A stretch of 64,000 nt of DNA from Sphagnum magellanicum (lineage: Eukaryota > Streptophyta > Sphagnopsida > Sphagnales > Sphagnaceae): assembly GCA_021904315.1 (NCBI GenBank), contig CM038911.1:4151780-4215779 (forward strand), in the 5' to 3' direction. This document shows, piece after piece, positions 716 through 63,018 of the stretch. Both the position numbers and the translations under genes were made by a program. A model generated the notes under the pieces. That model was not told the origin of the DNA. It saw nothing but the letters and a program-made list of their open reading frames with translations, and did no database searches. Numbering within the stretch: the stretch's first letter is position 1; every line of letters starts with the position of its first letter.

Positions 716-3594
716 CAGAGGGACCAAAGTTATCGTGTATTTCTTGGTACATATAGTAGACAATGTCCACAAGTTGATCCATTACCTGCAAAACCATTTT
801 CACAGTCTTATTTATAGTCTTGTGAATTTCTCTCCAATTCTTTTTGTCCCAGTAACAAAATGAAAATGATTTCATCTGGACATAAAATTGATAGCCAAAA
901 GCAATACTCTCTCAAATTTGCACCCCTCACATGCTATTATGTGATATGATGGAAGAAAAAAATGTACCTCTTCAAGAACTTTAGACCAGAGACATCTCTT
1001 TTTCAATGCCTTGACATGCTTCTCTTGGCTCTTGACTTCACTTCTCAGAAGCATGATGCTGTCTCCTACATAACCATAAAAACACACCCAGCAACAAAAA
1101 AAACTCCTTCCATGATGAACAGCCTAAGTTTTTAAATCATTTTTGTTCAAAGAAATCATCATCATCATCTGGAAAACCCTAAAACCCTAGTGGATCTTTT
1201 GTTTGAAGGACTCTGGTTCAACAAGACTGGATACTTGGGTGGTCTTAGAAAGTTTTGAGCAACTTGGGCAGTGATGTGACATGGTGATTCCACCAAGTTC
1301 AGCATTTTGAAACAAAATTTACAGAATTTTAGGGTTTAGTTGTTGCTTCTGGAAAGAGAAAGGATACAGGAGTTGACCTCAGACTAACAGGCTACAAAAG
1401 GATATATGAAACAAAAAACAACTCTCTTTTTCTTTTCTTTTTTTCCTTCCCCAGAAAGGGAGGTTTTCAAAAGACCTGATGTTCTTTTAGGGGAGGAGGG
1501 TGCGCACCGCACGCCACAGGAGTACCACCATCACTGATGATGAGCGCTTCTTCGTGTTGTTTACGCTTCAAATCCATCTGGAATCTGTCAAGAGCATGCA
1601 TTTCATGGTACAACTCCTGCCATGCACACCATTCATGTCCCCCCCCCAAACATGTATACATATGATAAATTCCTTGAGTATTAACAAACAAAGCACAGGA
1701 CAAAGTTCACTGTTTCAAAACAGCAACACAAGATAATTTGTTTGTACCCATTTTTGTCTACAAAGAGTGAGAGAGAGAGAGGGATGTGCGCGTATACAAA
1801 CACACGCGCACACACAGTTTTTATAGAACTTGATTTGCAACAAAAGACATGCATGGTGATGATGATGATGGTGGGGCTTCTGCATTTTGTTTCTTACCGC
1901 AGTATTTTCAGCCAGTGTCATCAAGTTTTGCATGATGACATCCGCCTGCTCTTTTGATTGTCTCGAATCTTCAATGTTGAGTCCCAATCTGCAAAGCAAT
2001 TGCCAACTGAAAGACTGAAAAAAATTCCATCATTGCACTTTCTTGCTTGCCACATTACCCATCTTCTCCTGGCAACAAGTTCCAAACACTTTGACAGAGG
2101 AAAAAAACAACTGAAATTTTGCTTACTAACCTTTTGCACAAGACTTTGGCCAAACAGACCATTGAACAACTTTGTTGGAAAAAGAGACAGAAAGAGAAAG
2201 CAAGAGCAAGAGAGAGAGTGGAAAGAGTGAGAGCAGAGAGGAACAGACCTGTCAAAAACCCGGTCAAGTTGATGCCACTGTGGGTCACGGCAGTGATTGC
2301 CAAATCGAATGACTTCTCCAGCAAAGATCTTCAGCTCATCCCTGCAACAACAACAAGACACAAATTTCTTCCATGACCACTGCCATTGCAGCAGATATTG
2401 ACACACAATGTTGAATTGCTTGTCTTTTTGCAAATCTCCGCAAGTGCAGTGGATTTTGCATCCCGATTGTAGCTAGAATGTCAAAAGGGAGGAGGAGACA
2501 ATTGCAGTTGTGGGACCCCCAACAAAAAAAAAACCAAACCCTAACCTCTTATCAGCAGCAGCAATCCACATCAATTCTTGCATGTCTGTAGAAACCAGAA
2601 GTTGAACACCCTTGGACACCAGAATCTCATCCTTCAACACTTTGATCTCCTCCCATTCCAAGGACTGCTTCAGATTGCAACCTTTCACAATGGTGTTGGC
2701 AACTTCAAAAGCTAAGATCCCAATCTTGTTGCCATGAGTCACTGCTGCTCCTCCACCACCTCCTCCAATCCCTGATGCAAACTTGCGCCCTGGGTTTAGG
2801 TTTGTCATTGTACTCCCCAAAGTGTCCAGAGCTTCCACAGCCTTCCCCAAGCTCACAGTTCCAGCTCCTCTTATCACTTCCGACATCTGCAACGAAGCTT
2901 TCACAAATCAGCAACAGAAAAATTCAGTGGTTGTTTTTTCTTTTTCTTTTTTCTTTTTTTGGGTTCAAGCTCCACCCATTCCTCTGCAACAGCAGAAAAG
3001 CATCTTGGGAAGCTTCTTGCAGTGATCCAAACCCATGGGAAGGAAGATGATGATGGATGATGTATGTACTCTAAAAGCTCCTTTCTTTGCAGCATTGGTG
3101 GTCTTGGATCGCACAGCACTAGCTCTGGCAGACAGCATCCTTGAAAGCCGCACTCTTTGCTGCTCCTCTGTGTTTGTATTGTTGTTGTTGACAGTGGTAC
3201 CATGACCACCATCGGCATCATCATCATCAACAGAGCTTGCTCCTGCTGCTGCCGCTGTTGCTGCTTCAATTGAGAAATCCTCATTCACATAAGAGAATTC
3301 TGTCTTGGGGACTGCACCACTTTCAGGCTTGGCATCTGCCAGCTCAGGTGTCTTCTTCCTCTCCTCCAGATCCTCAATTTCATGTGTAGCAACCATGACA
3401 AAAACCTTGGGAGCAACAGTAGTATCAGCAGCAGCAGCAGCAGTAATAGTTCCATTTGTTCTGCTTGGTGATGGGCATGGTGCAGGTTGTTGCACTGGGC
3501 TGCTGTTGTGCTGCTGCTGCTGCAGATCTCTCATCCCTTTTGCATCAGGTAACCCTCGATCCTCGGAAGCTCTCCTCGAGCAAATAGCCCCCAT
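716..3594 (-). CDS. PSK SIMULATOR (PSI)-like protein, DUF3475/DUF668 family, 5' part only
   Basis: Exons read on the minus strand: 3070-3594, 2546-2886, 2249-2341, 1898-1988, 1526-1616, 968-1065, 716-785. All have GT-AG borders and phases that join in frame. The start at 3594 gives MGAICSRR, with Gly2 and a nearby Cys, a likely N-myristoylation/palmitoylation signal as in Arabidopsis PSI proteins. Exon 1 is rich in Ala, Gln and Asn and of low complexity. Exon 2 carries the DUF3475 core (GILAFEVANTIVKG, then DMQELMWIAAADKR). Later exons give ELKIFAGEVIRFGNHCRDPQ, ELYHEMHALDRF, SEVKSQEKHVKALKKR and QLVDIVYYMYQEIHDNFG, all in the family order. The C-terminal DUF668 domain (expected motif like LGPAGLALHYAN) was not found in 1-715, so the gene continues past the left edge. 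PSI proteins support growth and phytosulfokine signalling in Arabidopsis; a similar role here is inferred. Confidence 0.9.
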
Positions 3595-5130
3595 AGTTTG
3601 TCTCCAAGTCTCTCCCAAAGACTCCAAAGCAGAAGAAGAACCACCACCCACTAGGTATATACTCTTGGGAAAAAAGAAATCAATCAATCACTCACTCCGG
3701 AGGAGCTGGTTTGCAGCAGCTGCAAATGGAGTTGATCTGGTTGCTCTGATCCTCGGCTTCCCAAGTTCTAATCTTCATCACTAGAGCTACTCCCAAGTAG
3801 TTCTGATCATTAGTCCTTCAAGCTCTGGAAGTAACTGGATGCAGCAACCAAAAAACTGTGATCTAAAAAGCTTTGCAAAACAAAGAAACGATAACCTCAA
3901 CAGAAGAAGAGAGGTTTACAGCAATTCAGTTTGAGCTTGCTGCAGCAAACTCCTCAACACTTGAAAACTTCTGGAGGAAAAATCGCCCCCATGTCTAGTA
4001 CTCTTCAAGCTCCCAATCTATCTATCTCTCTGTCTATCTACCACCTTTGTCACCTCAACTACTAGTCTACCAACAACTGACAAAACAGCAAACTTTGCTC
4101 AAAACCTGAAGCTCAGATGATCTGCAAGTTCTTCTTCTTTCAAGCTGAAGTACTGCAAGTTGATCTTCCAAGCTGATCTGCTGCAAGTTGATCTTCCAAG
4201 CTCTGCAAGCTGTTTGGCAACAATAATAATAAGAATAATCCCCAATCTTCTTCATCAGTAAGTGCAACCTCTGCTATATTGGTTTTCTTCATCACCAGTT
4301 TGCATCAGTCAGTACCACAAACAATTCCAGTAGCACAACCCAACAAAAACAAGCCCAGCATCATGTGTTGAGAAGGACACGATCAACATGATCAACAACA
4401 AGGGCAACAGAAAGAGCAACAGTCACAGCCATAATGGGAAGCTCACTGAGAGGAAGAACACCACCACCACCACCACCCATGATGATGAGAGACAGAGAGA
4501 GACAGAGAGCATCAATCAAAAAGAAAAATGAGTCTAATCCCAGTTGCAGATCAGCTGCCAAAAACACTAGTGCAAAAAACACTACTTCCTTGAATCTTCT
4601 AGGATACTGATGATGATGCTCTTTCAAGTCTGGAAGAAAACTCTCTGCACAAAACCCAAACCCCAAAAACATAAAAAATAAAATAAGGGTCTTGCTCTTG
4701 TTCTTCTTCCTCTTGCTTGTTCTTGTTCTTCTTTCTTCTTGCTCCTCCTGCTACAGCTTCTTCTTCTTCTTCTTCTCCTTTCTTCAGCTAGGAATGGGGT
4801 GTGGTGCAATGAGATTTTAATTTTTTAAACAACAAATGAGGGAAAAAATACAAAAAAAACAAAACCAAAACATGAAGTGGGTGGTTTTTTTTTCTTTTCC
4901 TTTTTGGCTGCCTTTCTCAAAACAGCAGTCTTGGCTTGGATTCAAGCTATGACTAGCCCTACTTACTTACTTACTACCCTAGCTACTTATGGGCAAAGAA
5001 AATGAGCTTCACTAAATTTCAGCTTTTCTGAGCTGTGATATTTTTTTTATTATTTTCTTCTTCTGCTGCTGCTTCTTCTAGGGTGGACAGAAAGAAAGAA
5101 AGGAACCAACAGTGGCAGGAGCTTAGCTGA
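3595..5130 (-). promoter_or_regulatory. PSI leader and promoter-proximal region
   Basis: This stretch upstream of the PSI start is rich in CT/AG runs and trinucleotide repeats. It includes TTC/GAA runs near 4690-4790 and CTG/CAG runs. A direct repeat containing TGCAAGTTGATCTTCCAAGC occurs twice, at about 4155-4200. ATG-initiated frames here are short and of low complexity, so I read it as 5' leader plus promoter. The transcription start is not visible, and a leader intron is possible. Confidence 0.45.
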
Positions 5131-5184
5131 CAAGAGGAATGGAAGGGAGTGCCCTCCCTTACAAAAAGGGGCTTTTGCTTGAAT

Positions 5185-5460
5185 GTGGTGATTAAGTAGT
5201 AAGACCCAATTTGGGTGATTATTATGCCCTTAATCTGTGGTGATTAGTAGGACCCAATTAGGGTAATTATGCCCTTGATCTGTGCTGATTGGTAAGACCC
5301 AATATGGGTGATTATTATGCCCTTAATCTGTGGTGATTAGTAAGAACCCAATTAGGATGATTGTTATGCCCTTAATCTATGATGCTAATTTAGGAGACCC
5401 AATTGGGGTGATATCCTTATGTCATTAATCTGTGGTGCTAATCTAGTCACTAAATTGGGG
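5185..5460. repeat. Tandem repeat, unit about 45-52 bp, about 6 copies
   Basis: Units begin near 5185, 5237, 5282, 5330, 5379 and 5432. Each has the pattern GTGGTGATTAGTAAGACCCA followed by ATTNGGGTGATTATTATGCC and CTTAATCT. Copies differ by small substitutions and length changes, so the array is old. It lies just upstream of the PSI leader. Confidence 0.85.
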
Positions 5461-18770: not shown

Positions 18771-24331
<5,561 letters not shown>

Positions 24332-36941: not shown

Positions 36942-39467
36942 TTACACCATATCCTCTAATTTAGAAAGAATGTCTCTAAAGGTTGGTCTCCGTTCGGGCA
37001 CATCATCCCAACAAGTTCTGATCAACTTGTTCAAAGGATGGTTTCGGTTACCTGGCAAAGAAGGTCTTTTAGGTACGGCAGAGCTTACTATCAAGAAATC
37101 AAACTTTGAAGGCTTATGGTCTTTGAATGGCTCTTTTCCTAAAAGGATTTCATAACAAACCATTGCAAAGCTATAAACATCTGCTTTGGTTGTGTACTCA
37201 AATTGCCTATTGTCTCGCATAGCTCTAAAAATTTCAGGTGCCCTCCAATAGCCAGTGCCCACACTCTCAACAGGTGATGCAACATAAAAATCTTGTGATG
37301 CACCAAAATCTGTAATTTTGGCATGCAAACTATCAGGATGTTCATGCACTAACACATTTCCGGCTTTTAAATCCCTGTGGAACACATCTCGAGCATGCAA
37401 AAATGCCATGCCTGCTGCAATTTGTGTGATCAAGCTTTTGGCTTCCTGTTTTGAGAATGGCCTTGTTGAATTTTTGGTTTTTGTTCGATCATTGATCAGC
37501 TTCCGGAGGTCATTGGGCATCCATTCTAAAACAATTGATGTTCTAAAGCAGTCTAGGGAATATCCCATCAACCGCACAATGTGAGGATGGTGTAATTTGA
37601 TAAAAAAATCAAGCTCAAATCGAAAAGATGGACTGTGCTCTTGTCCTTCAATATTCTTGAAGGTTTTGATAACATACTTGCAACCTTCAACTTGAGTCCC
37701 AATGACTTGCACACGATCTTCCTCATCTCCATGTATCCTCCAAAGAGCTTGGAATGTTGAAGGATCCATGCGAAGGTACCTAGGTAACCCTTGTATGTTA
37801 GGTGTGCTCCTACTTGATTATGCTCCATCCAATCGAGGTACAACTTCAACTTCTGGTGTCTCAATGTCTTCAAAACCACGTCGGCCAAAGAGGTGAAAGA
37901 AGCGTTTCATGTGGTAAACTGTAGGCCTTGTCAGGTTCAAGAATTTCTTAGCTATTGCAAAGTGCATGAATCCACCATCATGAGCATCCAAACATTTGAT
38001 CTCATCCAATACTGCACAGATTTCTGTAGCTGTAGGTCTGTGTGTTGGATCTGAATTCCAACAAGCTTGGATGAGATCGCCCAACTGTCCACCAACATCA
38101 AGTGGCAACTTTGGCCTATGGCCCGCCATGATAAGAGAAACTATGTTTCGATAAAGTACATCCATAAATGGGATTTTCCCTGTCAAAATTTCATAGCATG
38201 TCATTCCAAAGCTGAATATATCTGCCTTGGCTGAATAACCATCAGTAGCTTGACCTAAACCATGGTCAATAGCCCATGCCTCAGGCGCCCTCCACTGGGC
38301 TGTCCCTACAGGCCTACTATAAGTATCTTTGCTAGTGTAAACATCTTCCCTTGCCACTTGATTTGAAACTCCAAAATCACTGATTTTGACATCAACATAA
38401 CTGCCATGGTCATTAAATAGTATGTTAGGAGACTTTATGTCCCTATGCATGCATCCCTTCATGTGTAAGTGCTGAATTGCTCTTGCAATTTGGATGATGA
38501 TGTGAATGGCCTCTCTCTGACTGAATGGCACACCTTGCCCCTTTTTTTTCTTCATACGCTTCTCAATCAACCTGCGCAAATCTCCATCCATCAACTCCAT
38601 GATAATGTCGCCACTCCACCCTCTACAACTATCAGTAGGAAGTGTGACTCCTACCACCTGCACTATTTGCGGGTGTCGAAGTCTATTCAGAAACCCCACC
38701 TCTTTGTACATTGGTGTTAAGGAATGAAAGTCCTTCCCTATTCGTTTAACAGCCACATCACATCCCAGCCACTTTGATTTTGTAACCTCCCCATAAGACC
38801 CTGCTCCTATCATTCTCTCAACTGAATAATCTGAGGGGTTCACTTTGAAGTGGCTTGGGAGTCGATCCAAGTCCTCACACTCATTGTCTTCATGTCCCTG
38901 AAAAGTCTCATAGAGAACATTTCGAACATTTCGCAAATCTTCTCGGGTGTGGTCCAAAGGAGGGGAACTGTACAAACTCTCCAATGTCCCCAACATTTCT
39001 ATTTGATCTTGGTGTGTGTCTGAGAAAAGTACGTTATTTTCTTGCTCTACACTCGTTCCAAAGTTTACATTATTGTCGGTTGAATGGTCAAACTCACCAG
39101 ACAATAAAAAGAGCTTACATTTATCCAATTCTCTGTGGATGTCTTCAAAACCTTCATGATTGTCAGCTCTTGTCAATAACCTTGTCAACCAATGTTGCTC
39201 ATTGTATTGCAACACCAAGGCCTCCCCCCTCTTCAAAACAACAAGGAGGTCATTGAATGTTGCAGTAGGAAAAGGAAAAATTTCCTCATCATTCCTAAGA
39301 GTACTCCTCCACACCTCTCTCCAATAGCAAAGTGAACTGCCCACAGTTTCAAAATGATTGGCAAGTCTTCTGCATTGGTGGTTGTTTATCTATATGCCAT
39401 TTGCTACTTCCTTCACTTTCTCGATGATGCCAAGGGCTTCTTCAACTCGATTGATCACTTGCTCCAT
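36942..39467 (-). pseudogene. Tandem-kinase gene with MLKL/DUF1221-like N-terminus, two in-frame stops
   Basis: One intronless minus-strand frame of 842 codons (ATG 39467, TAA 36942-36944) is interrupted by TAG at 39390-39392 (codon 26) and TAA at 37818-37820 (codon 550). The N-terminus (MEQVINRVEEALG, then INNHQC after the stop) and the following helical region (NDLLVVLKRGEALV, HWLTRLLTRADN, IHREL) resemble plant MLKL/DUF1221 kinases such as At1g64300, from memory. Kinase 1 has GAGSYGEV, VAVK, HRDIKSPN, DFG and APE. Kinase 2 has a weak Gly loop but keeps VIKTF, HRDLKAGN, DFG, APE and TTKADVYSFAMVCYEIL. Both catalytic cores look active. The first in-frame Met after the TAG is at 38996, before kinase 1. 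A kinase-2-only product could start at 37769. Either this is a young pseudogene, or it is a locus now making separate products. Tandem kinases are known immune receptors in cereals; a similar role here is speculation. Confidence 0.75.
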
Positions 39468-58195: not shown

Positions 58196-58235
58196 TAACA
58201 TTACTAGAAATTTGGCATTTTGCAAGTGTCTTATG

Positions 58236-58440
58236 CAACTAGTTTTCAATTGCATGCGACACATGCAACTGAAAATTTGCCCAGTTGCCTAAGACAAGTT
58301 GCATGAAAATTGCAGTTGCATGCGACAGTCGTATAATACAAGTACATACGGTTGTGTTATACGGTTTCATCCACCCATACTCTATATTAGCAGTTGGTCG
58401 TGCGACTGCATGCAACTACAGGGGTTGCGTTCACACTGCA
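58236..58440. repeat. Left subterminal repeats of the CACTA element
   Basis: At least four copies of TTGCATGCGAC/GTCGCATGCAA-like words and more AGTTGC/GCAACT words lie here in both orientations. The matching set near the right end (62770-62990) includes GTTGCATGCGACC and several AGTTGCA copies. In CACTA elements such repeats bind transposase. Confidence 0.7.
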
Positions 58441-59285
58441 TTACATGTTAATTAACTAACCCAATTGTATGCGAACACGTGTACTTTCATTTTGTAATAA
58501 TTAGTTTTAAGAATTACTTTGATTAATCTAGACCGTCCAAGTCATAGTTGTTGGGGTGTGGACACGTGTTGGGTTTAAGGTTATGTCATTGTACACGTGG
58601 CACAAATTAGGGTTAGGGTTATAGACTTTAATTATCAAGATCATGCCATGTGGCAACCTAGTGACCGCACAATGTAGTTGCAAATGCAACTAATATTTTG
58701 AGAGTTTGAATCGCCATGTGTCACATGGTCCCACTGTTAGGGTTAGGGTTTAGGGTTTTCATCTGCTTTGTTCAATGTGCTATCTAGAATTGCCAAGAGT
58801 GCCTGTCAACAACAGATCGATCAACAAAACTCTACAATCACTGAGAAACATATGCACAAGGCAAAGAACTACATATTCCAAAAGGAAAGTTACAAAATTG
58901 TGGGAACATTTTCCAAGGTTCAGCAATAGCAAAAGAACATTGTGCAACAGAAAGGTGCTTTTCAGGCCTCGACTAACAATTGATGCCAAAGAAGAAAATG
59001 TCCGCAATGGCTTGGCTTGAGTGCTATCCCTTTTTCCTTGTGTGGGTTCCCGAATTCCAGAACATTCTGATATTCTTGAAGACTCCAGGGCCTGGCCCTC
59101 AGGTGTTTCTGCAAGGCACATCATTCCCCAATGAGAATTATGCAACTGTCAAGGCTTTGCCATCTTCCCTAAACAGACCCACAACATGCAAAAGGATTGC
59201 AGAAGTCATTACCAAAGCAAACAATGATATGACAAAGTTACACTTAAGGAAATAGAGATGAGATCATACCCTGAAAATAGACTAC

Positions 59286-60441
59286 CTTGTTTTCCAGAGC
59301 AAGGATGTCCTGTTTTAGGTCAAATATTATAGTGTCTTTTCGTCTGCAAAGATCTTCAAGAACTTTAATTCTCTGCTTCCAGCAACCCCAAGTGCCCTGC
59401 CCAAGATAAACTCAAAAGTCCTCTGATAGCAAAACTGCCATCTGTCACAATGTTTTGGGATCAAAATTCTGTTACTTCATCACTTGCAGTTCTTGTTGCT
59501 GGTGCTGCGGCAGTGATGTCATCCAGGGCTGTGTCCTGTTTTTGGCAGTCCTCCCTCAGCTCTGCAATCTCCTTTGACTTCACTGCAAGCATCATCTGTG
59601 AATTTCATCTTTTGAGTCTTTTGTCTCAGTTTGCCAGCATCCCAACATCATTTTTTCCATTATGTAAGTAAAAGTGCTCACCTTGCAGCTACGCACCAAG
59701 CTTTTGTATTCAGACTCCTGGTTGTGAAGCTGCCTTCTCAGTTCTGTAATTTCCATGCATGCTATCACCTATCAGCCATATCCAATGCCCCCATGTTTTT
59801 TCTTTAGTGCAATGCAGAGACACTCGGAAAACCAGGGCTACCATTTAATGAGATGCACGATTATTGTCCCTGAGCAACATAGTAGAAACTAAGAAGAAAA
59901 CTTGATTTTCATAGTCACCATCAATCCATTCTTCAAGCTCGACCTCTGAACTCTTCTTGTTAGCATTGCTGTCCATTGCATAATGTTTCATAGTCTTGAT
60001 CTGGCTCTCCATATCTGCAACCTGCAGTTTTTACAAGGCAAAGATTACATGTATTGATTTTTCTCATCAAAAGAATCGGTAGAATTTAAGAATTCGGAGA
60101 ATTGAAGCGGTTGGTTTGGAACTGTACTTTTTACGGTGCGCTCTCAAGCTCTCCAAGCAATTTTTCAGTAGAATCCTCTGGGAACCCTAATCCACTTCGC
60201 CTGCTCTGATGTGGGAGGTGGATATTCTCTGCTCCTTCCATAGTAGACATTGTCACCCTCCCCGTGCTGACCTTCTCACCTTCAGAGGCATCAGATAGGT
60301 GCTGATCTTGCGGAACAGCAGGCCCCGTTCCAGCGCATAAAAGTCGAAGGTGTGAAGCTGATCTTCCATCTCGGAGATCAGCATCTCCTGGTCTCGTCTA
60401 AAAACCTCGAAGTCCGAGTACATAGCTCGAATCCATTTCAC
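59286..60441 (-). pseudogene. Captured exons of a coiled-coil protein (unidentified)
   Basis: Five exons on the minus strand join with matching phases: 60280-60441, 59919-60021, 59682-59761, 59476-59595, 59286-59396 (about 192 codons, no stops). They read VKWIRAMYSDFEVFRRDQEM, ALERGLLFRKISTYLMPLK, VADMESQIKTMKHYAMDSN, ITELRRQLHNQESEYKSL, KEIAELREDCQKQDTALDDI and RIKVLEDLCRRKDTIIFDLK. Heptad-like patterns indicate a coiled coil, perhaps cytoskeletal. More exon-like sequence may follow down to about 59000. The first and last exons of the parent gene are missing, so it is a fragment. Its open frame and proper splice sites suggest recent capture or retained function. Confidence 0.6.
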
Positions 60442-60464
60442 CTGCAACAGCAACAACACCAAAC

Positions 60465-61590
60465 AAGCTGGTGAAGCTTTGCAAACTGACCAGAGAATGG
60501 CAACACTGAGTTCTGTAGCCAAGTTGGAGATTGTGTGTAGATGGTGCATTAGAGCAGCCATGGCTAAGGCATGATTGGCAACAGCTGCTCTTCCTTCTGT
60601 TGTGGTGCAGAGAAGCTCCAGAACCCCTAAAGCAAGCTCCACATTGCTTCTCTTGGCATCTGGAAGAAGCTCTATGAGCAAAGGAACCACTCCAACCTTC
60701 GCAACCCTAATCCTGTTTCTCCTTGGAATGTAGATGGTAAGCAAAGCCTTCAAGCCGGCCCTAATGGCCTTGGGGTAGAACTCCTCTCGCAACAACTTGG
60801 CTAGAGCTTCAAGCACTCCCGGCATCGCTTCGGTGCTGTTGTTGTGCGACGATTCCGTTTCCGATGCGATTCCCGCAAGAACGGTTGCGGCATTTACCCT
60901 GGCATCCAAGCTTCCTTTGCACAAAAACCAAGCTAGGGTTGTAACCGAACTCTGCATCAGAAGCTGCTCTCGCCGCTGTCTGTTTGCTCCCACCTCAAGA
61001 AGCGCAAGGATGGCGAGCGTTTCTTCACAAGCCTCTAAGCTGAAAGAAACTCTCTATTGCTTCTTCTTTTTCCTCTCTTGTTCTTCTTCTACTGGCAATG
61101 GGTACTTACATCGAAGTTTTAGAGCACCACCGATCACCAAAGCGAGCACGGAGATGGCATCAGATTCTTGGATGCATTTGCGATTCCTCTTACTCTCTCG
61201 AGCCACCAACATGATGTTCTGCAGACTGGGAAGCGGATCCACGGAACTTTGCACTTCGCAAAGCATTTTGGCCACGGTATCCGCAGCCACGGGCACAGAG
61301 GGAGTCGAGAGGAGTTGTACAAGGGCGCCGGACGAGCCGCCGCCACCATGCGCTTCGCACCAGTTCTGGAAGGAAGCCAGTGTCTACATCGTCGTTGGAC
61401 ATGTATGGTTCCCCACTTCTAGCCATGGCTCGCTGCTGCTCCGCTCGTAGCTTTGTCCTATGCACAACACCACCGGATCCCTCATAAGCTCCAACAAAAT
61501 CGGACATTTGAAAAAGGATGGCACCACTGCTGCTGCTGCTTCTTCTTCTTCTGCTGCTGTCACGCTCTTATGAATCTTTTCTGGCCTCAT
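60465..61590 (-). pseudogene. Captured U-box/ARM E3 ligase (PUB) gene, U-box broken
   Basis: The start at 61590 gives MRPEKIHKSV, an Ala/Glu run, then the U-box FFKCPILLELMRDPVVL, IGQSYERSS and WLEVGNHTCPTTM. TAG follows at 61384-61386. The same frame then resumes with TLASFQNWCEAHGGG, so about 11 codons of the U-box (the usual VPN region) are missing at the stop. ARM-type helices follow (ADTVAKMLCEVQ, ESDAISVLALVIGGALKL), then an intron of roughly 70 bp near 61034-61105, then ACEETLAILALLEVG, LDARVNAATVLAGIASE, AIRAGLKALLTIY, VGVVPLLIELL, LGVLELLCTTTEGRAAV and ATELSVAILWSVCK. The end (LVLLLLQ) runs straight into the splice acceptor of the coiled-coil piece at 60441, a capture junction. PUB proteins ubiquitinate targets, often in stress and defence; this copy should lack a working U-box. 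Confidence 0.75.
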
Positions 61591-61947
61591 GATCTGATCT
61601 CAAAACTCTCTTTCTTTCTTGCAAGCGTCGTCTCCAGCTACAATTCTTCTCCTTCAACAGCTTCTCTCCAGAGTTTCAACAGAAGATAAATTCCCTAAAC
61701 GCATCAGCAAAATTCTTTTTACAATACAAAAACGTTACAAAAGCATGCATATAGTCAGTCACAAAACAAACCAACAAGACTGAGTACCAAACAAACACAA
61801 AACTTGATTAAAAAGCAGCTGGAGTGCACATATTAAAAGAACATCAAGCTGCTAATCAATATCACACAAATGGAGAACTAGTGTAACTGCTGCACCTACT
61901 CATTATAATACAAAAGTCTGACAAAATTGGGTTTGTTGCAAAATTAG

Positions 61948-61949
<2 letters not shown>

Positions 61950-62014
<65 letters not shown>
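61950..62014. repeat. (AG)n microsatellite, about 32 units
   Basis: A nearly perfect dinucleotide run lies between the U-box piece and the EMG1 exon inside the CACTA element. Ser/Leu-repeat and Arg/Glu-repeat frames across it are artefacts of the run. Confidence 0.95.
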
Positions 62015-62018
<4 letters not shown>

Positions 62019-62249
62019 AAGAAAAAAATAATGCAAAAGATTAGGCAACCCAAAACTTGCAGCACATGCACCCAAAGCTCCCCGCCGCTTGCTTCCACGA
62101 AAGGGAGTGCGCAATCCTCGTCGCCGTATGGCATCACCTTTATAATCCCTTTCATTGTGGACATCTCGATCACGACTCCCTCGAAAGAAAAACTCCCCAC
62201 CCTCTTCCCCAGAGAGAAAAGGAGAGGGGATTTCTTTTGTTTTTTTTAC

Positions 62250-62414
62250 CTTCCCCACTTTGGCAGCTTCCAGAGAGGCTTTCTCCAGCACAAAGATGAC
62301 TCCACCATCCTTCGCAGATGGAGCTGGAACTGGAGCCGCTGCATCCGGAAGACTGCTAGGTCCAGAAGCTTCCTCCTCTGCAACATCTTCATTCCTGTCC
62401 TCTACACCCACCAT
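62250..62414 (-). pseudogene. EMG1: Captured first exon of EMG1/NEP1 (rRNA pseudouridine N1-methyltransferase)
   Basis: The 55-codon exon starts MVGVEDRNED and ends GVIFVLEKASLEAAKVGK, then a GT donor (GTAAAA). Plant EMG1 has GVIFILEKASLEVAKVGK at the end of its first exon, with the next exon starting TYQLL at the same phase. No later EMG1 exon is found on this strand down to the end of the element. The SPOUT methyltransferase core is therefore absent and the copy cannot make the enzyme. EMG1 acts on 18S rRNA in ribosome biogenesis. Confidence 0.75.
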
Positions 62415-62640
62415 CCTAGAACTTTCCCAAAAACACCAAACAAGCCAGACCTAAGCAGTTCTTAGTTTGGAAAAGCAACAAGCCAGCAAGCAAGCAAAAA
62501 GGGCTCTACAATTTCTCTAACAAAGCCCAATATGCAAACGAGAAATTGTGCACAATCAAGAGAAGAGTGAAGGAAATCCCATTAGGGTTTCCAACGCTGA
62601 GGTTTAGGGTTTCACTGAGAAACTCGAGATAGGTAGGTGG
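62415..62640 (-). promoter_or_regulatory. Captured EMG1 promoter with two telo-box motifs
   Basis: AAACCCTAAT (minus, at 62581-62590) and AAACCCTAAACC (minus, at 62601-62612) precede the EMG1 exon. Telo-boxes of this form are typical of plant ribosome-biogenesis promoters. The element thus carries a promoter pointing into the other two captured pieces. Confidence 0.6.
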
Positions 62641-63018
62641 CAAAATAGATTAGGTTATTTTTCGCCTATATCCTACACCTTATCAATGGGATTGTCATTT
62701 GTAGGCAACCCTAATCCTAAACATGCCTATAAGAAATGTGTACCTAGCTTACCAAAAGACCATAGTTGGCCTATTTTGGTTGCACATGCAACTATGAGTA
62801 TATGCATATCAAATATATACAATGATATATCACAGAAATCATCCAAAGGTTGGGATGAGGGTGATCATAGTTGCACCATAGTTGCATACACACCCAAAAA
62901 GGGGGCAAAAATCCATTGTAATTGCATAAAAAACCAAAGATAGTAGTTGCATGCGACCGGCAGTTGCATCTCAGTTGCAAACATGATGATTCATATAACA
63001 AAATTTCTAGTAGTGTAA

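Follow-up and report, generated by a model that had tools for sequence, protein, structure and literature searches.

How pieces of several unrelated host genes come to lie inside one DNA transposon is the question raised by a 4,817-base element in the moss Sphagnum magellanicum, located at positions 58199-63015 of a 64,000-nucleotide stretch of contig C5 (C5:4151780-4215779, CM038911.1; hereafter the window). A first-pass annotation, made from the sequence alone, had read it as a Pack-CACTA transposon. Searches of the genome (438,994,042 bases in 31 contigs) lead to the same identity by way of the element's ends, an empty site, its relatives and the donors of its cargo. The element is very probably a non-autonomous transposon of the CACTA superfamily, of the Pack-CACTA kind, whose cargo was collected stepwise by nested capture. 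Coordinates are those of the window, which equal element coordinates plus 58198.

The boundaries proposed initially, namely terminal repeats matching at 14 of 15 positions, a TAA duplication and subterminal repeats enclosing 4.8 kb, agree with the ends and with the empty site. The left terminal inverted repeat (TIR; CATTACTAGAAATTT, 58199-58213, + strand) is matched at 14 of 15 positions by the reverse complement of the right one (CACTACTAGAAATTT, 63001-63015, - strand); the CACTA start is seen as CACTACTAGAAATTT at the right end and, with one change, as CATTACTAG at the left. The two TAA copies of the target-site duplication (TSD) occupy 58196-58198 and 63016-63018. Subterminal repeats, a CACTA feature, are present at both ends: the left transposon end (58199-58760, element 1-562, + strand) carries TTGCATGCGAC repeats, the right end (62633-63015, element 4435-4817, + strand) has a subterminal repeat at 62946, and the three exact copies of TTGCATGCGAC in the element represent both ends (the relative L054 has no exact copy). 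With up to one mismatch, GTTGCATGCGAC occurs four times in the window, three of them in the element ends, against a chance expectation of 0.14; genome-wide it has 520 exact matches, versus 6 for the reversed control. The 300-base flanks joined by one TAA form a 600-base query that aligns over 1-600 to C5:7929403-7929984 at 92%, with identical bases next to the junction, a single TAA in place of the two and one 21-base gap about 40 bases right of the junction. This empty site (L067), a paralogue of the flank that lacks the element, shows that the element was inserted here; the single-TAA site anticipated in a related accession was thus obtained, but from a paralogue on the same contig. Part of the right flank is also duplicated at C5:4251390-4251581 (97%).

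Other copies with the same TIRs, whose existence had been proposed as a check, were indeed found. The whole-element search gave 529 candidates, the best 40 of which were scored and returned 67 matching pieces; 20 genome stretches were then read, comprising 12 relatives with both ends, two donors (L051 and L055) and six stretches that do not show both ends (L044, L048, L052, L053, L056 and L057). All 12 complete relatives have perfect 3-bp duplications (TAA, ATG, GTT, CGA, ACA, GAA, CTT, AAA, TGT, TTA, AAG and ACA), and their terminal 15-mers agree at 13-15 of 15 positions. Including the TAA of the window, this hallmark of CACTA elements is accompanied by two empty sites. The second concerns L050, which lies inside a retrotransposon (copia-type by reading of its frame); its joined flanks cross the junction in all 40 loci scored from 491 candidates, 39 over positions 1-597 and one over 3-597. 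The family's left-end 18-mer has 33 exact genome matches (control, 0) and, at up to two mismatches, 397 (control, 29), the latter including variants such as miniature elements; the window element's own left end differs from it by one change. Facing CACTACTAGAAATTTTGT end pairs about 150 bp apart, such as C2:7518609-7518760, suggest a miniature family with the same terminal motif. Modules were mapped by BLAST of the element against the donor loci, which explains the cargo nearly to the last base, and 17 relatives were mapped in this way. The left end is present in all 17 (in L044 from position 417 only), and the right end, whole or partial, in 13; the stretches of L052, L053, L056 and L057 do not show it. 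L044 was at first taken for a 5'-truncated copy, a view dropped in favor of an insertion within it, as suggested by a left end at C6:25635633. Downstream of the family left end in L056, long open frames run through 2673-5277 (- strand), and the two that were scanned gave no Pfam match.

The cargo consists of pieces of five named genes, EMG1, CKX (cytokinin dehydrogenase), a U-box gene (PUB), RPB2 (the second subunit of RNA polymerase II) and a coiled-coil (CC) gene, together with one dispersed repeat. The named gene pieces total 3,728 of the 4,817 bases, and all identified pieces have the same sense (- strand). Starting from the left, EMG1 piece b (58763-58953, element 565-755) holds the end of intron 2 and the start of exon 3 (ALLAILDSTLNKA). 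It is followed by piece V (58951-59091, element 753-893; no strand assigned), a dispersed sequence of about 140 bp with 40 matches (40 of 60 candidates scored), 23 of which lie outside the listed family loci, so that it seems to be a dispersed repeat or gene family in its own right. An RPB2 exon remnant with intron (59091-59272, element 893-1074) comes next, and then the CC piece (59273-60343, element 1075-2145), with exons, assigned by reading, and introns. CKX piece b (60342-60451, element 2144-2253) comprises an intron acceptor and the start of a CKX exon; this exon and the residues following it had been taken as part of the coiled-coil gene until the donors were compared. The PUB piece (60457-62055, element 2259-3857) is a U-box/ARM gene that lacks its 3' end and includes about 465 bp upstream of the ATG (61590). 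CKX piece a (62056-62179, element 3858-3981) is part of the FAD-binding exon (MSTMKGIIKVMPYGDEDCALPFVEASGGELWV), and EMG1 piece a (62178-62632, element 3980-4434) brings about 218 bp of upstream sequence, an ATG at 62414, exon 1 and the start of intron 1. The first-pass annotation had named the EMG1 promoter with exon 1, the U-box/ARM gene and coiled-coil exons in one orientation; those pieces and their sense stand, but the list of three sources was incomplete, as it overlooked RPB2, both CKX pieces and the dispersed repeat, and EMG1 lies at both ends of the cargo.

Each cargo gene could be traced to loci elsewhere in the genome, as expected of a Pack-TYPE element. The intact EMG1, PUB and CC loci, which had been proposed as a search target, were recovered as L060, L051 and L055, and both element ends gave no match in the nine donor stretches (these three, L061-L063 of the CKX family and the RPB2-like L064-L066) or in the empty site. 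EMG1 pieces a and b are 89% and 91% identical to positions 282-736 and 1260-1452 of L060 on C15, which has the EMG1 exons in order. The element's own EMG1 peptides (55 and 21 aa) had no EMG1 match in PDB, and the 55-aa peptide none in Pfam; identity was settled through the donor exon (PF03587, E 7.5e-22). The PUB piece (U-box, 6.7e-12; ARM_PUB, 4.8e-41) is 89% identical to L051 on C5, an open reading frame (ORF) of 446 codons from stop to stop, and the CC piece is 94% identical to L055 on C4, with homology stopping at the piece borders; for the CC gene, three donor ORFs scanned gave no Pfam family and five matches no named relative. CKX pieces a and b are both 95% identical to L061 (positions 1215-1338 and 642-751). 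For piece a the donor frame matches PF01565 (3.7e-13), while the element's own 40-aa peptide gave no Pfam match alone; piece b matches PF09265 at about 1e-6 and CKX proteins in PDB (best, 2.2e-4). The CKX family has about 21 loci, 19 at 90-96% and two at 81-85%; four cluster on C1 (28.57-28.75 Mb), and the family is expanded. The RPB2 piece is 86% identical to L066 and matches PF04565 at 2.2e-7 when the window peptide is read across one stop and at 3.1e-17 with the peptide from the relatives' exons; the RPB2-like loci of C18 and C10 show 81-88% similarity, and the C10 copy has, by reading, a stop in the expected frame. Since sequence of EMG1 introns 1 and 2 and of the RPB2 intron is retained, capture took place at the DNA level.

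The pieces do not lie side by side but are nested. Two halves of EMG1, and likewise two of CKX, flank other cargo while remaining colinear with the donor and in the same sense: the EMG1 halves enclose CKX, and the CKX halves enclose PUB and the coiled-coil gene. Relatives show single captures in other states. In L049, CKX continues to the very base at which the window element, L040 and L050 resume CKX after the CC piece; the uninterrupted sequence is CGATGTAGTCGAAGG, with CGATGTA/TAAATGC and CATAAAAG/TCGAAGG as the joints. The CC piece was accommodated in CKX with no loss of CKX sequence (within 1 bp) and with microhomology of 1 and 2 bp. About 455 bp of CKX are missing where PUB lies in it, and at least about 443 bp of EMG1 where CKX does. 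Both L049 and L050 are without RPB2 and have 70-80 bp of extra EMG1, at the position where V and RPB2 are found in the window element and in each of the 15 remaining mapped relatives. In L041-L047, with the exception of L045, a short remnant, which may be the CKX acceptor, bridges RPB2 and PUB; in L045 the RPB2 piece is longer and PUB is shorter. Further cargo in relatives includes a piece of a proteasome ATPase gene (PF16450, L054) and one of EXO70 (PF20669, L059). The relatives hold different subsets of the cargo, indicating gain and loss of pieces within the element family.

The chimeras have also moved as units, a further mark of Pack-TYPE elements, as identical chimeric junctions recur at different sites with different TSDs in L041-L043 (ATG, GTT and CGA) and in L046 and L047 (GAA and CTT). 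Junctions are likewise common to different chromosomes: the RPB2-CC joint is at the same place in the window element, L040 and L052, and the PUB-EMG1 joint is shared by L046 and L047. Copies of the same layout are 93.5-94.1% alike (five pairs). The seven identified cargo genes share one sense, six of six agreeing with EMG1 (two-sided sign test, 0.03); this count leaves out an ORF of L057, an element with its right end outside the stretch, and opposite-sense open frames in L058. Counter to the pattern runs an inverted 323-bp CKX duplicate beside direct CKX at L049:1187-1509, the only identified opposite-sense cargo. The L057 ORF (1925-2566, 214 aa, no Pfam match) would have the opposite sense if it is inside the element, and the L058 frames also run counter to one sense.

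From these structures we infer the following history. The family, which counts dozens of left ends, would, on the standard reading, have been mobilized in trans by a CACTA transposase encoded elsewhere in the genome. EMG1 would have been captured first, because its colinear halves lie outermost, in a single segment, 1.17 kb or longer, that reached from promoter to exon 3; CKX would then have inserted into EMG1, and PUB and the coiled-coil gene each next into CKX, at different points. In a sister lineage RPB2 and the dispersed repeat would have entered the EMG1 part, and the window element would be an RPB2-type left part joined to a CKX/CC/PUB-type right part. At the CC step, at least, an internal break would have been repaired by gap filling, in which template switching copied an unlinked gene, and the chimeras would afterwards have multiplied across the genome as units. 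As to the source of the transposase, the element, as mapped, has no space for one between its modules: no PF02992 match (Transposase_21) at C5:4209978-4214794 was among the matches listed, and no transposase was found in the six element pieces scanned. The genome holds at least 152 PF02992 matches (150 of 657 candidates scored). Four of 17 right ends (those matching query positions 591-741 only) have a listed PF02992 match in matching orientation at a distance of about 8-13 kb, where the expectation of 0.04 uses a 14-kb limit set after seeing the data.

The coding state of the chimeras was examined through PUB. Compared with its donor, the aligned part of the window copy has two in-frame stops and no frameshifting gap; an earlier reading of this copy as frameshifted was replaced accordingly. 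Eight PUB copies have one to five stops each, three of them frameshifting gaps too, and their dN/dS against the donor (0.33-0.76) is inseparable from donor-branch constraint plus neutral decay. In a protein search with the window U-box gene, the closest Sphagnum proteins were P0002 (81% identity) and P0004 (77%), and 12 of 64 protein matches combine PUB and CKX domains. P0004 (CY35_06G141200) ends in a peptide resembling the PUB/RPB2-intron junction of L041-L047 and is probably a family element annotated as a gene (L044, C6:25638734-25642307). Judging from it, Sphagnum gene annotations may include such chimeras.

Two mechanisms have to be weighed for the captures. In the model proposed for Arabidopsis Pack-CACTA elements (PMC13317346, PMC8903248), two neighboring elements with complementary terminal deletions fuse and enclose the chromosomal DNA between them, which would also split older cargo into outer halves. 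The losses of about 450 bp between the nested halves (CKX in EMG1, PUB in CKX) and the left/right mosaics, such as the RPB2-CC joint of the window element, fit hybrids of this type. The CC capture does not follow easily from it: with a loss within 1 bp, two independent terminal deletions must meet at one base, and this zero-loss joint favors template switching that filled a break inside the element. Nor does hybrid formation predict that the other identified cargo genes should agree with EMG1 in sense, as six of six do. We hold it to be unlikely that all cargo arrived through hybrids, whereas break filling is the probable route for at least the CC step; we think that both processes acted. A bolder and still more doubtful version would have capture here consist of repeated filling of internal breaks with copies of unlinked host genes, oriented like the EMG1 promoter already in place. 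If true, the capture route would be unlike the hybrid model for plant Pack-CACTA elements, transcription would set the orientation of captured or kept DNA, and each element would be a layered, readable capture record.

The remaining explanations fare worse. Rearranged pseudogenes might have been assembled in the chromosome and then enclosed once by transposon ends, a scenario in keeping with the single sense of all identified window pieces and with about 21 dispersed CKX loci. The genome searches speak against it. Outside family elements, PUB returned only its donor and more distant paralogues (22 matches), CC and CKX only the donor, a paralogue and CKX loci (31 matches), and EMG1 one locus with exon 1 (best 40 of 76 candidates scored); as the non-family matches are donors, paralogues or CKX loci, the cargo pieces are not seen as neighbors elsewhere, an adjacency that had been named in advance as a way to refute the element. 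The PUB and CC/CKX searches likewise showed no TIR-less chromosomal site with PUB or CC inside CKX. Adding the differing cargo subsets among relatives, we regard this scenario as highly improbable. If selection maintained the element as a functional chimeric gene under the captured EMG1 promoter, this would account for EMG1 upstream sequence and an ATG at the right end that face all other pieces, for the PUB-CKX domain pairing among protein matches and for the probable annotation of one relative's ORF. Every one of the eight PUB copies is interrupted by stops, however, the dN/dS range does not stand apart from neutral decay plus donor constraint, and two of the 12 complete relatives (L040 and L054) lack the EMG1 promoter piece, which leaves such a function improbable on the sequences compared. 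As for a chance match of TIR and TSD with no element at all, the 15-mer by itself is not rare at three mismatches, where the motif alone is non-significant (five observed in the window, 4.5 expected); the empty site, the 12 perfect duplications and the ends common to the relatives refute this explanation, and we give it practically no weight.

Several observations weigh against the stepwise, nested history preferred here. The losses of about 450 bp suit hybrid formation no less than gap filling, and donor identity does not act as a clock of the nesting (PUB 89%, CKX 95%, CC 94%, EMG1 89/91%, RPB2 86%); exon content, paralogous donors and selection on the donors blur identity as a clock. The CKX and RPB2 donors are multi-copy, so the exact donor is not pinned, and the stretches read include no complete autonomous element bounded by these ends. 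Trees built from the ends and from PUB come close to a star shape, one of 34 inner branches being well supported and bootstraps unsettled, so that the hybrid origin of the window element is argued from structure; these trees, together with the similarity of copies, suggest a burst followed by decay. All of the evidence comes from one genome.

Elsewhere in the window, two adjacent ORFs of 508 and 275 aa (36942-39344, - strand) are presumably kinase-like by their motifs, and ORFs at 19627-20993 (- strand) are presumably kinesin-like; at 20836, within one of the latter, the subterminal 12-mer recurs with one mismatch, probably by chance. Rfam at gathering scores gave no match within the window. 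A tblastn scan of viral contigs for protein relatives found none, and one viral contig (L009) showed one pattern match.

No classified repeat is more abundant in the assembly of S. divinum than the CACTA superfamily (6.8%; PMC9946827). No Pack-CACTA element of mosses was met in the titles and abstract openings of the open-licence literature, which is weak evidence of absence. Three gene sources in one CACTA element, initially considered unusual, are less so in light of Tgm-Express1, a 5.7-kb soybean CACTA element with five host genes (PMC1947982). Like it, the moss element has CACTA ends around exon and intron pieces of five unrelated host genes; it differs from what is described of Tgm-Express1 in its moss host, in its many related copies and in the two donors split around later cargo, which give the capture order. 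With Arabidopsis Pack-CACTA elements (PMC8903248, PMC13317346) it shares CACTA ends, a TSD, captured coding DNA, several loci per element and mobile copies, whereas a hybrid or local-hopping origin was proposed for those and one capture here better fits break filling. Metazoan Pack-TIRs, attributed to gap filling or FoSTeST with microhomology of 1-36 bp (median, 2 bp; PMC8277862), resemble it in their internal breaks, inserts copied from elsewhere and short microhomology; they are mostly single-copy and often near the donor, whereas here the EMG1 and CC donors are on other contigs and captures were repeated within the family. A 2026 review considers that DNA transposons possibly take up unlinked gene pieces by an undiscovered mechanism (PMC13317346). 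The CC-into-CKX event separates two proposed capture mechanisms, and nested captures with relatives in other states let the order, breakpoints and losses of single captures be read directly. The Pack-CACTA kind and a five-gene CACTA element were already known; the moss host, the nesting and the readable capture order are new.

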